DNA from: Alphaproteobacteria bacterium
Lineage (GTDB): Bacteria > Pseudomonadota > Alphaproteobacteria > Rhodospirillales > Rhodospirillaceae
Direction of reading: 5' to 3'
NCBI GenBank assembly: GCA_030604885.1
Contig: JAUVUZ010000005.1
Coordinates: 62,001-126,000, forward strand
DNA: 64,000 nucleotides
In this document: positions 176-55,150 of the stretch, in pieces
How positions within the stretch are numbered: position 1 is the first letter of the stretch
Layout of the letters: each line of letters begins with the position of its first letter
The notes under the pieces: model-generated
The model's database searches: none
What the model was told of the DNA's origin: nothing
What the model saw: only the letters and a program-made list of their open reading frames with translations
Made by a program: the position numbers and the translations under genes

Positions 176-263
176 CCTCATCGGCGTCCGTGAGCCGTCC
201 AATAAGAATGTCGAGGCACAATCTAGACGATCGGGGGGAAGTGTAAAGAAGATTCTAAAACTA

Positions 264-440
264 GGCCGGGCGCTGCCCGGACCCGCGAGGGGACAGAGGT
301 CCCCTCGACCCCCGTTCCTGGTTTTTCCGCGAAGCGGGAGTCATCCGTCACGCCGCGCGATGGTTCGATCCCGCTTCGCGGAAAAACAAATGGGTTCACA
401 GGGCCACCCGGCCCTGTGCGGGTCCGGGCAGCGCCCGGCC
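264..440. repeat. Modular inverted-repeat intergenic element, copy 1 (P-Q-R-R'-Q'-P')
   Basis: Perfect 23-nt terminal inverted repeats GGCCGGGCGCTGCCCGGACCCGC (264-286) and GCGGGTCCGGGCAGCGCCCGGCC (418-440); inner inverted repeat TTTTTCCGCGAAGCGGGA (322-339) / TCCCGCTTCGCGGAAAAA (369-386); two unlike hairpins at 286-307 and 397-418. Confidence 0.9.
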
Positions 441-445
441 TGGTT

Positions 446-1156
446 TTATCGCGGATTGCGCCGGAACCGCAGGATCACCGGCGCGCGGCCCTGGCGGATG
501 GCTTTCCGTTCGTAGCGGGTCGGCACCCAGTCGTCCGGGCGGCCGAGCCAGTCGGTCGGGGTTTCGGCCATCCAGGTGAAGTCGGGCGAGTCCATCAGGT
601 GGCGGAGCGACCAGCGGATGTAGGTCATGTCGTCGGAGGCGACGCGGAGTTCGCCGCCGTCGGCGAGCAGGCGCGCGAGTTCGGGCAGGTTGTCCGGCCC
701 GATGAAGCGGCGCTTGGCGTGGCGCAGCTTGGGCCACGGGTCGGGGAAGAGGACGAACACCCGGGAGAACCCGGCGTCGGGGAAGCGCGGCGTGAGGGCG
801 CGCACGTCGCCGTGGTGGATGCGCACGCGATCGGTGGCGTTGCCCGCGTCGAGCAGCGACATCAGGCGGGCGACGCCGTTGAGGAAGACCTCGCAGCCGA
901 CGATGCCGACGGATGGGTTGGCTTCCGCCTGGCCCGCCAGGTGTTCGCCGCCGCCGAAGCCGATTTCGAGCCAGGCTTCGGCCACCGGCGCGGCGAACAG
1001 CGCCTTCGGCTCCAGCGGACCCTCGCCGCCGGGGACCGAAATCTCCGGCAGCAGGGTTTCCATCAGGCGGGCGCGGCCGGGCCGCAGGGCCTTGCCCTTG
1101 CGGCGACCGTAGAACTTGAGATCCCGCGCCTCGGGCGGAAGGTCCTCGGGCCGCAT
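446..1156 (-). CDS. trmB: tRNA (guanine-N7)-methyltransferase
   Basis: WLEIGFGGGEHLAGQAEANPSVGIVGCEVFLNGVARL, LFPDPWPKLRHAKRRF motif; overlaps the metK stop. Confidence 0.92.
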   Translation of the reverse strand: MRPEDLPPEARDLKFYGRRKGKALRPGRARLMETLLPEISVPGGEGPLEPKALFAAPVAEAWLEIGFGGGEHLAGQAEANPSVGIVGCEVFLNGVARLMSLLDAGNATDRVRIHHGDVRALTPRFPDAGFSRVFVLFPDPWPKLRHAKRRFIGPDNLPELARLLADGGELRVASDDMTYIRWSLRHLMDSPDFTWMAETPTDWLGRPDDWVPTRYERKAIRQGRAPVILRFRRNPR

Positions 1157-14753: not shown

Positions 14754-14776
14754 AAAGAAGCCGAAGGAAAAACGTC

Positions 14777-14916
14777 GCGGAGGGTCTCGGACCCTCCGCA
14801 CCTCCCATTCCCTTGGTTTTCCGCGCAGCGGGATTCACCCGTCACGCCGCGCGAAGATCTCATGGCGCTTCGCGCAAAAAAATGTCCGGGAGGTCCGGAG
14901 GGGCGCGCCCCTCCGG
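14777..14916. repeat. Modular inverted-repeat intergenic element, copy 2 (Q-R-R'-Q')
   Basis: GCGGAGGGTC-tcg-GACCCTCCGC (14777-14799), TTTTCCGCGCAGCGGGATTCACCCGTCACGCCGCGCG...GCGCTTCGCGCAAAAA, and a 22-bp perfect palindrome CCGGAGGGGCGCGCCCCTCCGG (14895-14916). Confidence 0.85.
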
Positions 14917-14963
14917 CCCGGGCGGAGCCCATCTTCCCTTCTCTCTTCCTTTTCCCCCGCCCC

Positions 14964-16070: not shown

Positions 16071-16131
16071 GCCGCCAGGATAACGCAAAACCCCCGCGCG
16101 ATAGAAGAACAAAAAATGAACTTCCGGCGAC

Positions 16132-17019
16132 TCAGGGGTTCCCGGCCACCTGCACCTCGGTGGCGAGGCGGGCGTCGTCCAGCCCGGCGAGGCGGTTGGC
16201 GCGGATGATCATGCGCAGGGTCTCGCCGTATTCGCCGCCGCGCTCGGAATAGCGGTCGAGGGCGCGGGTCAGCTCGTAGCCCGAGGCGCCGGAGGCGCGC
16301 AGGGCGCGGAAGCGGGCGTAGGCGCGGTGGGAATTGAGGTTGTGGACGTAGGCCGCCACCGCGCCCTTGACCGAGGGGAAGGCGCGCACCCGCCGCGCGG
16401 TGTCGCCGGGTTCGTTGTCCTGGGGCAGGATGCCGTCGTGGTCGTCGTTCCAGGTGTATTGGCCGAACAGGGCGTTGCCCTCGCGGACGAAGCGCGAGGA
16501 CCCCCAGCCGCTTTCCTCCGCCGCCTGGGCCAGCACCAGCGAGGGCGGCACGCCGTCGACGCGGGTCATCAGGCTCTCGACGGTGGCGGCGCCGTAGCGT
16601 TCGGAGAGGGCCGCCAGCCAAGCTTCGTCGCGCGGGGGAAGGAATTCGCCGCGCCGCAGCGTCTGCCCCAGCTCGGCGAGGCGGCGGCGCTCGGCGGCGA
16701 TTTCGGCGTTGACCTGCAGCACCACCGGCAGCAGGGCGCGGAAGAACAGGCTTTTCTTGAGTTCCAGGTCGGCGAGCCGGGCGAGATCGCGGGGCAGGGC
16801 GCGGGTGGAGAGCTTGGGCACCTCGGCCTCGCCGGCGCGCACCGCCTCCCAATCGTAGCCGCTCGCCGCGAACACGTCGGCCAGCGCCATCGCCTCGGGG
16901 GCGGTTGCCTCGGGGTTGGCCCGCGCCGGGGAGGCGAGCAGCGCGGCCGCGACGAACGCGGCGGCGGCGAGGGCGGAACGCAGGGATTTTCGCGTGACGG
17001 GTTGATCCGATTCCGTCAA
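16132..17019 (-). CDS. Secreted Bax-like glucosaminidase domain protein (paralog A)
   Basis: Signal-like N-terminus; PPSLVLAQAAEESGWGSSRFVREGNALFGQYTWN, YVHNLNSHRAYARFRALRASG. Confidence 0.82.
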   Translation of the reverse strand: MTESDQPVTRKSLRSALAAAAFVAAALLASPARANPEATAPEAMALADVFAASGYDWEAVRAGEAEVPKLSTRALPRDLARLADLELKKSLFFRALLPVVLQVNAEIAAERRRLAELGQTLRRGEFLPPRDEAWLAALSERYGAATVESLMTRVDGVPPSLVLAQAAEESGWGSSRFVREGNALFGQYTWNDDHDGILPQDNEPGDTARRVRAFPSVKGAVAAYVHNLNSHRAYARFRALRASGASGYELTRALDRYSERGGEYGETLRMIIRANRLAGLDDARLATEVQVAGNP

Positions 17020-17202
17020 TGGTCACTCCTCGTTTTCTCCGATTTCGACAACCGCCAACGCGAAAAGCCGGATATCGGTTCCCGAAAAGGCGCAGAATCC
17101 CGTCTCAGTTGCGCGGGATTTTGCGAAATGCGGGGATGTTCGCGGAAAAGGCGAAGACGCCGGAAGGACGTCGCCGCGCGGCGGAGCCGCGACGGCGACG
17201 CC

Positions 17203-18204
17203 TCAGCGGCTGACCACCTGGACCTCGGTGGCGAGGCGCGCGTCGTCGAGCGACGCCAGGCGGTTGGCGGTCATGATCGACCGCAGGGTGTCCACGTATT
17301 TCTCGCGCCGCTCGGAGTAGCGGTCGAGGGTGGCGGTGAGTTCGTAGCCCGAGGCACCCATCGCCCGCTGCAGGCGGAAACGCTCGTAGGCGGGGTGGGT
17401 GTTGAGGTTGCGCACGTAGGCCGCCACCGCGCTCTTGACGCTGGGGAAGGCGCGGATGCGGTGGGTTTCGCCGCTGCCGCGTTCGGCCGGAACGATCCCC
17501 GCGTGGCTGTCGGACCAGGTCCACTGGCCGAACACCGCGTTGCCCTCACGGGCGAAGCGCGAGGTGCCCCAGCCGCTTTCCTCCGCCGCCTGGGCGAGCA
17601 TCAGCGAGGGCGGCACGCCGTCCACCCGCAGCAGCAGGGCGGCGAGGTCGTCGGGGGCGGTGCCGTACTTGGTCGCCAGCGCCTGGAGCCACGCGGCGTC
17701 GGCGCGGCCGGGGGCGGCGCCCGCGTCGATTTCGGCCTTGAGGGTGGCGAGGCGGCGGCGCTCGGCCTCGATCTCCGCGTTCACCTGCAACGCCATCGGC
17801 AGCAGGGTGCGGAAGAACAGGCTCTTCTTCAAATCCACGTCCTGAAGGTGGACGAGATCCTTGGGCAGGTTGCGCACCGCCACCGGCGGCACGTCGGCGG
17901 TGCCCCGGAGCACCGCGTCCCACTCGTAGCCCTGCGCCGCGAAGCGTTGCGCGAGGGCGAGGGACTCGGTGGGCACCACCGGGGTTTCGGCGGCGACGGC
18001 GGGGCGGGCGCTCGGCGGCGCGTCGCTCTCCGTCGCGGTCACCACCGCGATCCGGGGAATCGAGGCCGGAGCCTCGACCGGGAATCCGTGAAGCGCCGCG
18101 ACGCCGATCGACGCCGCGACGAGGGCGGACGCGCAGGCGACGCGCGGCCGTTGGCCCAGAACGTTAAGGCTGAATCCCGCCAATAACCCGATCTCCCATT
18201 GCAA
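17203..18204 (-). CDS. Secreted Bax-like glucosaminidase domain protein (paralog B)
   Basis: PPSLMLAQAAEESGWGTSRFAREGNAVFGQWTWS, YVRNLNTHPAYERFRLQRAMG; close paralog of 16132-17019. Confidence 0.82.
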   Translation of the reverse strand: MQWEIGLLAGFSLNVLGQRPRVACASALVAASIGVAALHGFPVEAPASIPRIAVVTATESDAPPSARPAVAAETPVVPTESLALAQRFAAQGYEWDAVLRGTADVPPVAVRNLPKDLVHLQDVDLKKSLFFRTLLPMALQVNAEIEAERRRLATLKAEIDAGAAPGRADAAWLQALATKYGTAPDDLAALLLRVDGVPPSLMLAQAAEESGWGTSRFAREGNAVFGQWTWSDSHAGIVPAERGSGETHRIRAFPSVKSAVAAYVRNLNTHPAYERFRLQRAMGASGYELTATLDRYSERREKYVDTLRSIMTANRLASLDDARLATEVQVVSR

Positions 18205-27193: not shown

Positions 27194-27293
27194 CCCTCAC
27201 CGCCCCACACGCGGGCCGTCCGCCACACTAATTTAGAAACGAGTTCAAGGAAAGGCGACTGCGGTGCAGGAAAAACCCCACCCAGGGCAGCAA

Positions 27294-27558
27294 GGCCGGG
27301 CGCTGCCCGGACCCGCGAGGGGACTCGGTCCCCTCGACCCCATTCGTTGGTTTTCCGCGAAGCGGGATCAATTCGGCACGCGGCACGCGAACAGAAAACA
27401 AGGCCGGGCGCCGCCCGGACCCGCACAGGGCCGGAGGCCCTGTGAACCCATTCCTTTTCCGCGAAGCGGGATCGAACCATCGCGTGGCGCGATCGTCCTC
27501 TAGCGCTCCGCGCAAAACCAAAACGTCCGGGAGGTCCGGAGGGACCGAGTCCCTCCGG
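27294..27558. repeat. Modular inverted-repeat intergenic element, copy 3 (tandem direct P-Q-R units, then Q')
   Basis: GGCCGGGCGCTGCCCGGACCCGC at 27294 and GGCCGGGCGCCGCCCGGACCCGC at 27402; Q hairpins CGAGGGGACtcgGTCCCCTCG, CACAGGGCCggaGGCCCTGTG, CCGGAGGGACcgaGTCCCTCCGG. Confidence 0.88.
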
Positions 27559-27563
27559 AGTCT

Positions 27564-34852: not shown

Positions 34853-36171
34853 GAAGACTTCCTGTTGGTGCGGGAGAAGACGCCGTCCCCCATGCGGCCG
34901 CTGCGGAGTATATGGGCAAGCAATAGCAGCCCCGGAACCGCCAGCAGCGCGGTCGAGCCGAAAAACATGCCCCAGTCGCCGTCGAGCCGGTCCACCATCC
35001 ATCCGGCGCTCCCCGCCATCAGAAGGCGGGCGAGGTTGCCGAAGGAGGCGAGCAGCGCGTACTGCGTTGCGGCGTGACCGGAATCGCACAACCGCGACAA
35101 AAAGGCAACGAATGCGACGACCCCGAAGCCCGAGGTCAAGCCGTCGCCCACCACCGCCGCGATGAACCACGGCCGCCCCGGGTCGGCCGCGAGCCCGGCG
35201 AACAGCAGGTTGGTGGCGGCCATCAGCACCCCGGCGAGCAGCAACCCCCGCCCCAGGCCCATGACCCGCAGCAGCGCGCCCCCGGCGACGCCCCCCGCCA
35301 AGGTCGCGCCGATGCCGTAGATCTTGCTCACCTCGGCGATCGTTGCGTAATCGAAACCCATCTCGCGGTAGAACACCCCGCTCATCCGCCCGAGCATCGC
35401 GTCGCCCAGCTTGAACAGCACGATGAAGGCGAGAATCTCCCCCCACAGCGGCCGCGCCGCCAGCAACCGCAACGGCTCGGTCACCGCCTCCGCCAGCCGC
35501 GCCCGCCAGCCCGAGGCGCCCGAACGCGGCCGCGGCGGAACCTCCGGCTCGCGCATCAGCAGAACCGCGACCAACGGCACCGCCAGCGCCAGCGCCAGCG
35601 CCGCATAGGCGGCGGGCCAGCCGAACCGCGCCGCCAGCAGCAGCCCGCCCGCGCCCCCCGCCACGGTGCCGCCGAGGTGCCAGCCCAGAATCGCCGCCGC
35701 CGACCCGGCCCCCATGCGCGGCGCATCCAAAACCTCGATGCGGTAGGCGTCCACCACCACGTCCAGCGAGGCGGAAACCGCCGCCACCGCAACCGCAACC
35801 GCCGCCATCCGCCCCAGCCCCGCCAGCGGGTCCTGCGCCGCGAACCCGAGAATCGCCGCGATCAACGCCGCCAACAGCACCAGCAGCCAGCCGCGCCGCT
35901 GCCCCAGCCGCCACGCCCCCAGCGGCGGCGGCACCCGGTCGAACACCGGCGCCCACAGAAAATTCACCGCATACGGCGCCGCCACCGCGCCGAACGCCGC
36001 AACCGCCGCCCGCCCCAGCCCCGCATCGCGCAGCCAAATCGACAAATTCACCGCCAGCAACGGCGCGGGCAACCCGCTCGCGATCCCCAACACCACCACC
36101 GACAGCAGCCGCGAATCCCGATACACGGCCAACGCCGCCCGTATCCGCGAATTCCGTTCCGCTTCCGGCAT
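34849..36171 (-). CDS. AmpG-like MFS permease
   Basis: VVLGIASGLPAPLLAVNLSIWLRDAGL...LWAPVFDRVPPPLGAWRLGQRRGW; about 12 TM. The longer ORF start lies inside repeat copy 4. Confidence 0.78.
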   Translation of the reverse strand: MPEAERNSRIRAALAVYRDSRLLSVVVLGIASGLPAPLLAVNLSIWLRDAGLGRAAVAAFGAVAAPYAVNFLWAPVFDRVPPPLGAWRLGQRRGWLLVLLAALIAAILGFAAQDPLAGLGRMAAVAVAVAAVSASLDVVVDAYRIEVLDAPRMGAGSAAAILGWHLGGTVAGGAGGLLLAARFGWPAAYAALALALAVPLVAVLLMREPEVPPRPRSGASGWRARLAEAVTEPLRLLAARPLWGEILAFIVLFKLGDAMLGRMSGVFYREMGFDYATIAEVSKIYGIGATLAGGVAGGALLRVMGLGRGLLLAGVLMAATNLLFAGLAADPGRPWFIAAVVGDGLTSGFGVVAFVAFLSRLCDSGHAATQYALLASFGNLARLLMAGSAGWMVDRLDGDWGMFFGSTALLAVPGLLLLAHILRSGRMGDGVFSRTNRKSS

Positions 36172-36199
36172 GATCGCTCCGCTCGACGTCGAGGAAAGG

Positions 36200-36456
36200 C
36201 CAGGGCGCTGCCCTGGACCCGGCAAGGGACTCGGTCCCTTGCATCCCATTTGTCGGGGGTTTTGGCGGGAAAGGCAATCGTCGTGCCCGAAAAGAACCAG
36301 GGCGCCGCCCTGGACCCGGCAAGGGCCGAAGGCCCTTGCATCCCGTTCGTTCTGGTTTTCGCGCGAAGCGCTATTCGACCATCACGCCGCGCGAACCGGC
36401 TTATGGCGCTTCGCGCAAAAACAAACGGGGTGCGCGAGGGGACCGAGTCCCCTCGC
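36200..36456. repeat. Modular inverted-repeat intergenic element, copy 4 (tandem P-Q units, R-R', Q')
   Basis: CCAGGGCGCTGCCCTGGACCCGGCAAGGGACtcgGTCCCTTGC and CCAGGGCGCCGCCCTGGACCCGGCAAGGGCCgaaGGCCCTTGC, then GGTTTTCGCGCGAAGCG...CGCTTCGCGCAAAAAC and GCGAGGGGACcgaGTCCCCTCGC. Confidence 0.88.
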
Positions 36457-36475
36457 ACCCTTACGTCCGCTTTTT

Positions 36476-41846: not shown

Positions 41847-41866
41847 CGGTGGTCTCCTGAAAACCA

Positions 41867-42060
41867 GGCCGGGCGCTGCCCGGACCCGCACAGGGCCAGG
41901 TGGCCCTGTGTACCCGTTCGTTTTTTCCGCGAAGCGGGACAACCCTACCACGCCGCGTGAAAATCTTCCCGCGCTTCGCGCAAAAACCAAACGAACGGGA
42001 GGTGCGGACGGGATTGGAGCCGGTCGCCGAAGGCGACAAAAGCGCCCGGTGGGCGCTTTT
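41867..42060. repeat. Modular inverted-repeat intergenic element, copy 5 (P-Q-R-R' with divergent right half)
   Basis: GGCCGGGCGCTGCCCGGACCCGCACAGGGCCaggtGGCCCTGTG, TTTTTTCCGCGAAGCGGGAC...GCGCTTCGCGCAAAAACC; right half has other hairpins including AAAAGCGCCCggtGGGCGCTTTT. Confidence 0.85.
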
Positions 42061-42113
42061 GAGGCGCAAATGCCCGAAGGGCGGCCCTCCGCGACCTTTC
42101 TTTTCGATCCGCT

Positions 42114-47430: not shown

Positions 47431-47608
47431 CGCCAGGCCAGGGGCGCTGCCCCTGACCCCGCCGGGGGGTCTCGGACCCCCCGGACCCCGCGCTCACTTC
47501 CAAAGAAAAGGGGCCTCCGCCAGGGAGGCCCCTTTTCTTTGGAAACGAATGGGATCCAAGGGCCCAAGGCCCTTGGCGGGTCCAGGGCGGAGCCCTGGCC
47601 TGGCGTTA
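47428..47608. repeat. Modular inverted-repeat intergenic element, copy 6 (P-Q - bidirectional terminator - Q'-P')
   Basis: TAACGCCAGGCCAGGG (47428-47443) / CCCTGGCCTGGCGTTA (47593-47608); Q hairpins CCGGGGGGTCtcgGACCCCCCGG and CCAAGGGCCcaaGGCCCTTGG; central 19-bp stem at 47500-47542. Confidence 0.9.
47500..47542. terminator. Bidirectional intrinsic terminator at the centre of repeat copy 6
   Basis: CCAAAGAAAAGGGGCCTCC-gccag-GGAGGCCCCTTTTCTTTGG, perfect 19-bp stem. Confidence 0.9.
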
Positions 47609-54941: not shown

Positions 54942-54974
54942 GGGACAGGAAAAGGGCAGGGGAAAGGAAAGGAC

Positions 54975-55137
54975 GCGGAGGGACTCGGTCCCTCCGCACC
55001 TCCCATTCGCTTTGGTTTTGCGCGTAGCGCGATAAAGCCATCACGCGGCGTGACGGGGGAATCCCGCTTCGCGGAAAAACCAGAACGAACGGGTACACAG
55101 GGCCTCGGCCCTGTGCGGGTCCGGGCAGCGCCCGGCC
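54975..55137. repeat. Modular inverted-repeat intergenic element, copy 7 (Q-R-R'-Q'-P')
   Basis: GCGGAGGGACtcgGTCCCTCCGC; GGTTTTGCGCGTAGCGCG...ATCCCGCTTCGCGGAAAAACC; CACAGGGCCtcGGCCCTGTG; GCGGGTCCGGGCAGCGCCCGGCC (55115-55137) then TGGTTTTTT. Confidence 0.88.
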
Positions 55138-55150
55138 TGGTTTTTTCCGC

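Follow-up and report, generated by a model that had tools for sequence, protein, structure and literature searches.

Structure of the palindrome next to trmB

The gap between trmB and the next minus-strand gene, close to the start of the window (the whole 64,000-nt stretch analysed here), carries a palindrome of nested and partly unlike hairpins, and the question is what kind of element this is and what it might do at the end of a gene. The initial annotation described perfect terminal inverted repeats of 23 nt, an inner repeat of 18 nt and two hairpins of equal geometry (9-bp stem, 4-nt loop) and different sequence, CGAGGGGAC-agag-GTCCCCTCG and CACAGGGCC-accc-GGCCCTGTG. All of these were read again from the sequence, the terminal repeats at 264-286 and 418-440 (Table 1). 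Once the A/T ends AAAACTA and TGGTTTT are counted, the palindrome reaches approximately 256-448 and overlaps the trmB stop codon (TAA, 446-448, minus strand).

The predicted single-strand fold of this element is one branched structure, with a long outer stem, the side hairpins B and B' and an inner stem bearing a small centre hairpin. Its energy is -149 kcal/mol as RNA (z -12.5) and -91.7 as DNA (z -14.5), and no shuffled sequence equals it in either case. Thus, the palindrome at 256-448 is real and lies far beyond chance (z -12 to -15). Since the side hairpins need to pair only with themselves, a difference between B and B' is compatible with matching outer and inner arms.

The far end of the element lies just short of a promoter-like site (TTTACA-16-TAGATT, 247-220) belonging to the next gene, for which the name rimP is taken from the initial, sequence-only annotation. 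On the minus strand the promoter-like site (220-247) is followed, ahead of this gene, by a terminator-like hairpin with a T-run, GAGGGTGGGCCGGTGGCCCACTTTTTTTG (155-179), and a similar hairpin with a T-run was seen downstream of trmB in most of the relatives read. This recurrence suggests a conserved leader attenuator ahead of the gene that follows trmB.

Table 1. Repeat elements of the window and the parts of element 1
Feature	Position	Strand	Basis
Element 1, type 1, X-D-X	256..448	.	sequence, fold, 100% BLAST match and homologues
Left hairpin A, CCGGGC-GCT-GCCCGG	266..280 (mirror copy 424-438)	.	sequence, covariation
Left hairpin B, allele CGAGGGGAC, loop AGAG	286..307	.	sequence, stem covariation, allele count
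Left inner arm C, TTTTTCCGCGAAGCGGGA	322..339 (mirror arm 369-386)	.	sequence
Centre hairpin D, CCGTCACGCCGCGCGATGG	345..363	.	sequence, fold
Right hairpin B, allele CACAGGGCC, loop ACCC	397..418	.	sequence, allele count
Element 2: Y arm, then C-D-C' and a variant arm; flanking genes convergent	14766..14931	.	sequence, gene calls
Element 3: partial X-C-D, then X-C-D-C'-Y	27290..27560	.	sequence, gene calls
Element 4: extra X arm, then X-C-D-C' and another hairpin arm	36197..36460	.	sequence, gene calls
Element 5: X-C-D-C'-Y, nested hairpin insert in the Y hairpin loop; right boundary approximate	41860..42099	.	sequence, gene calls
Element 6, type 2: bidirectional terminator-like hairpin enclosed by A-B arms; flanking genes convergent	47436..47606	.	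sequence, gene calls
Element 7: Y-C-D-C'-X; between convergent genes	54968..55148	.	sequence, gene calls

A family of mosaic repeats

A BLAST search with element 1 gave 80 matches in the 3.37-Mb genome (G000) of the Rhodospirillaceae-type bacterium to which the window belongs, and a covariance model of one arm (R1), a check that had been proposed at the outset, gave 109 arm matches in this genome as well as matches in its relatives. Grouping of the 109 arms gave about 62 elements and one more at the edge of a contig. No Rfam family matched the window at its curated score, the best sub-threshold matches being far below the cut-offs, and no named repeat of these bacteria came up in the literature searched. 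Thus, neither of the two outcomes on which the initial annotation had staked its reading, an already catalogued family or a lack of further copies in the genome, was encountered.

The general plan of a copy is an outer hairpin A, a variable hairpin B, an inner stem C and a centre D, followed by the mirrored arm. Each arm consists of a short triloop hairpin A and a 9-bp hairpin B, and the arms flank an exchangeable core, which is either the C-D-C' stem (type 1) or a terminator-like hairpin. Two kinds of arm dominate, X (AAAACCAGGCCGGGCGCTGCCCGGACCCG, hairpin B, ACCCCATTCGTTTTGGTTTTTCCGCGAAGCGGGA) and Y (AAAGGTCGCGGAGGGACTCGGTCCCTCCGCACCTCCCGGACGTTTTGGTTTTGCGCGAAGCGC); most copies join an X arm to an unlike Y arm, X-D-Y being the commonest form. 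In the type 2 subtype, represented by element 6 and about 10 more copies in the genome, a bidirectional terminator-like hairpin takes the place of the C-D-C' core. The seven copies noticed in the window all exist, but they do not share a single architecture, as the X-D-X form of element 1 is in the minority and element 6 has another core.

Several local peculiarities were also seen. In some copies (window about 41990-42099, L147, L139 and G000:C49 near 9209) a longer insert with nested hairpins takes the place of the Y hairpin loop; this insert is missing from G001 L055, the orthologue of L147. At L142 (about 2670-2830 and flank) an insertion with the inverted ends GGTGCTGTCCCTATAATTTTCC and GGAAAATTATAGGTACAGCACC, which looks like an insertion-sequence remnant, adjoins the Y side of the element. 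Elsewhere in the window, direct repeats (16125-16803 and 17193-17874) of 77-80% identity, about 1070 bases apart, have the look of a tandem gene duplication.

Pairing and alleles of the hairpins

In a set of 20 own-genome X arms, pairing was seen in 95% of cells, with double changes in 9 of 19 pairs, and slid controls gave 29-50%. For 23 arms from eight genera the paired share was 97.7% (slid controls, 29-56%), both sides had changed in 8 of the 9 B pairs, and covariation was 0.44 as against 0.14 in shuffles. In 74 own-genome arms, 657 of 660 B stem cells were Watson-Crick, one was G-T and two were other, a figure that is flattered by the use, in finding and aligning the arms, of a model that rewards pairing. 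The use of wobble asymmetry to tell RNA-level from DNA-level selection was dropped, there being too few mismatches in the B stems.

These results bear on the simplest alternative, that the elements are chance inverted repeats of a GC-rich genome with neither common origin nor function. Short inverted repeats are indeed numerous in a genome of such high GC content, but the fold z-scores, the covariation relative to shuffles and slid controls, and the homologous arms in other genera, including one setting in which the flanks are more A/T-rich (G040), are all against it. The covariation and homology already refute this explanation, the probability of which is negligible.

The B hairpins differ by whole alleles or by single compensated pairs, and the alleles are discrete: CCAAGGGCC, CACAGGGCC and CGAGGGGAC together account for 42 of the 74 arms. 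One mismatched hybrid, CCAAGGGCC-TCCC-GGCCCTGTG in L004, looks like an exchange breakpoint within the loop. A rule by which the two arms must differ, thereby avoiding long perfect palindromes, was considered and not adopted: one homodimer was scored in 50, about 3.6 being expected (P 0.09-0.12), which is suggestive only, and since this homodimer (L164) was scored by comparing A hairpins, the true count may be 0.

Orthologous sites and distribution among relatives

The history of individual copies was followed in a sister species of the genus (G001), whose best 20 loci represent 19 sites (L073 and L076 fall on one). All 19 align to stretches of the own genome, with flank identity of about 84-93% among the alignments listed, and at 18 of them an element is present in both genomes; at L083 the G000 site is empty. 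The B stems of 18 orthologous arm pairs were identical in six, different at one position in four and different at two or more in eight. Whole B alleles are swapped at orthologous sites while the flanks are kept, and the CACAGGGCC/CGAGGGGAC exchanges at L069, L070 and L078 are clean, both versions being perfectly paired; mismatches are present in a few G001 stems. The proposal that each arm carries its own interchangeable hairpin was thus borne out and strengthened.

Comparison of the orthologous trmB-rimP regions, also suggested initially, showed the element to be present, altered or absent depending on the genome of the genus. It has the form Y-D-X in G001 versus X-D-X in G000, diverged or different forms in G005 and G007, and is absent from the trmB site of G003, G004 and G006, where no substitute terminator was recognised either, so the trmB element is dispensable. 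The site of window element 6 holds a type 1 core in Rhodospirillum sp. UBA1311 and unrelated sequence in G001. The shared sites and the swapped arms and cores indicate old age for most sites, some gain or loss, and exchange of arms and cores.

On a wider scale, R1 matched in all eight genomes of the genus. An A-B arm model (R2) at 1e-5 matched in 33 of 199 genomes of the order, belonging to 15 of 84 genera, and in 5 of 388 genomes drawn from the class, these counts being lower bounds because few candidates were scored per genome. The A-B arm thus has a patchy occurrence, in 15 or more genera of the order, and in other genera the A-B arms are kept while the cores are different. Carriers include Oleispirillum naphthae, two alphaproteobacterial MAGs and UBA1311, whose synteny with the window at 76-82% identity places it close to the organism of the window. 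A plasmid collection yielded one relative, Rhodovastum atsumiense.

Mobility

The initial annotation considered mobilisation by a RAYT/IS200-like transposase, which the genomes do not support. The Y1_Tnp (RAYT) domain was absent from the own genome and from the six other element-rich genomes of the genus, and was found in only one of the eight, G004, which is the lowest in arm matches. A RAYT-driven REPIN was therefore rejected.

A broader proposal is that some transposase acts in trans on a selfish miniature element, MITE- or REPIN-like, which survives mainly where it is least harmful, behind stop codons. This would account for the terminal inverted repeats, the many similar copies, the patchy distribution across the order and the presence or absence of copies at the trmB-rimP and L083 sites. 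We consider it somewhat unlikely, given that the transposase family surveyed is missing from the element-rich genomes, that 18 of the 19 sites are common to the sister species, giving no sign of frequent recent hopping, and that no clear target duplication is seen at the empty trmB-rimP and L083 sites, although these are too diverged to be decisive. The 23-nt terminal repeats belong to the X-X copy, and the commoner X-Y copies have no matching outer ends.

Location at gene ends

According to a simple codon-usage gene caller made for this analysis, 29 of about 62 elements lie between convergent genes, 33 between co-directional ones and none between divergent ones. Divergent gaps make up 49 of the 184 gaps of at least 60 nt in about 430 kb of sampled contigs; the chance of finding 0 of 62 is about 5e-9 with this reference or 1e-4 when all adjacent gene pairs are used. 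The distance from element to stop codon is mostly below about 20 nt, and some of the co-directional copies reach up to the following gene's start region as well. Of the 23 convergent gaps of at least 60 nt in the element-rich contigs sampled, 14 contain a copy. Such a bias could alternatively arise from purifying selection against insertion elsewhere.

The X arms have an A-run outside and a T-rich run inside, and their borders are T-rich in both reading directions. In type 2 cores, a stable hairpin is followed directly by a T-tract, in the form A-tract, GC stem, T-tract. In type 1, TTTT stands about 5 nt past hairpin A, not directly at the stem.

Position on the chromosome

Elements are clustered around dnaA, which served as the reference point. 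On the 4.04-Mb contig of G001 (C1, dnaA at 2544639), 14 of 35 sites are no farther than 200 kb from this gene, where 3.5 would be expected (Rayleigh p about 4e-5), and in the own genome the dnaA-bearing contig of the window (C3, dnaA at 36034) has 17 of 62 elements, where three would be expected; these figures take no account of gene content.

The BIMEs of E. coli have been described as gyrase targets and as supercoiling or nucleoid sites, and a similar DNA-level role, for instance as a gyrase target between converging genes, might be envisaged here. The frequent location between convergent genes, the clustering near dnaA and the near absence of G-T pairs from the stems are consistent with it. 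Nevertheless, mismatches are too few to tell DNA-level from RNA-level selection, and the clustering is uncontrolled for gene content, with the GC skew switching about 0.35 Mb from dnaA, so that we regard this role as unlikely.

A GANTC-linked repeat of the Caulobacter kind was not supported: GANTC occurs at 4.8 per kb in the elements as against 3.9 in other intergenic DNA, and in 14 of 27 elements. In the window as a whole (1-64000) GANTC is strongly under-represented, with 112 sites versus 269 expected, and is lowest in coding sequence.

Possible function and maintenance

The earlier reading of a REP/BIME-like structured 3'-end repeat has stood, apart from RAYT mobilisation: in the wide sense of these terms, the elements are high-copy intergenic palindromes with covarying hairpins, located at gene 3' ends next to stop codons and avoiding divergent gaps. 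Judged from sequence, they are most aptly described as a new family of mosaic REP/BIME-like repeats for which no transposase was recognised. The reading we favour, with about even confidence, is that the family marks the 3' ends of transcription units as a boundary working in both directions. The offset of TTTT from the stem in type 1 and the dispensability of the trmB element speak against it. The transcribed hairpins would stop or slow RNA polymerase coming from either side, and may protect mRNA 3' ends. Gene conversion might let dispersed copies trade arms, with the A and C sequences that they share providing the homology, and template switching during replication, which can create and repair stems (PMC8794818), might mend imperfect ones. 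Together, conversion between copies and template switching would keep the stems perfect and alike, and no dedicated transposase would be required today.

A more far-reaching version is offered tentatively. The elements may be a system not described before, a two-way gene-end boundary of exchangeable hairpin cassettes concentrated around dnaA, in which dispersed copies at fixed sites trade B alleles and whole cores, the stems are held to Watson-Crick pairing by a DNA-level process, and concerted evolution has long proceeded without a transposase.

REP-like repeats are common, and transposase-less families, such as the CGTC REPs of the 2013 survey (PMC3733652), raise the question of how they persist and stay uniform. 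Because individual sites can be followed from one species to another and the swaps keep pairing, conversion and template switching are directly testable here. The covariance model might also provide an annotation rule for gene ends in this order, as the share of filled convergent gaps in the sampled contigs indicates.

Comparison with known repeats

Like the BIMEs and REP dimers of enterobacteria and Pseudomonas, the elements are intergenic mosaics of inverted hairpin units in which heterodimers are common, and REPs elsewhere also occur at the 3' ends of convergent and co-directional genes and rarely between divergent ones (PMC3733652). They differ in the longer unit, the two hairpins per arm, the exchangeable cores and the discrete B alleles, and no RAYT accompanies them in the element-rich genomes.

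The CGTC-tagged REPs of Alphaproteobacteria resemble them in bacterial class, in adjoining stop codons and in having no known dedicated transposase, and in some species form dimers inside larger palindromes (Di Nocera et al. 2013, PMC3733652). However, these REPs are single palindromes of 20-40 bp that have a CCA tail and leave a CGTC tag unpaired (PMC3733652), and no tagged unit of this size was recognised here; CGTC occurs in some Y tails and in the centre D, not as an unpaired tag. Inspection of the printed copies against the description in PMC3733652 likewise recognised no GTAG or CGTC tag adjoining a REP-type palindrome.

Type 2 cores, with their A-tract, GC stem and T-tract and their location mostly between convergent genes, are similar to intrinsic bidirectional terminators, from which they differ in having repeated A-B arms around the hairpin; a hairpin of this kind is missing from the type 1 core. 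Other intergenic palindromic repeats of Alphaproteobacteria are the RIMEs of Rhizobium and the GANTC-linked intergenic repeats of Caulobacter, which the elements resemble in this general description.
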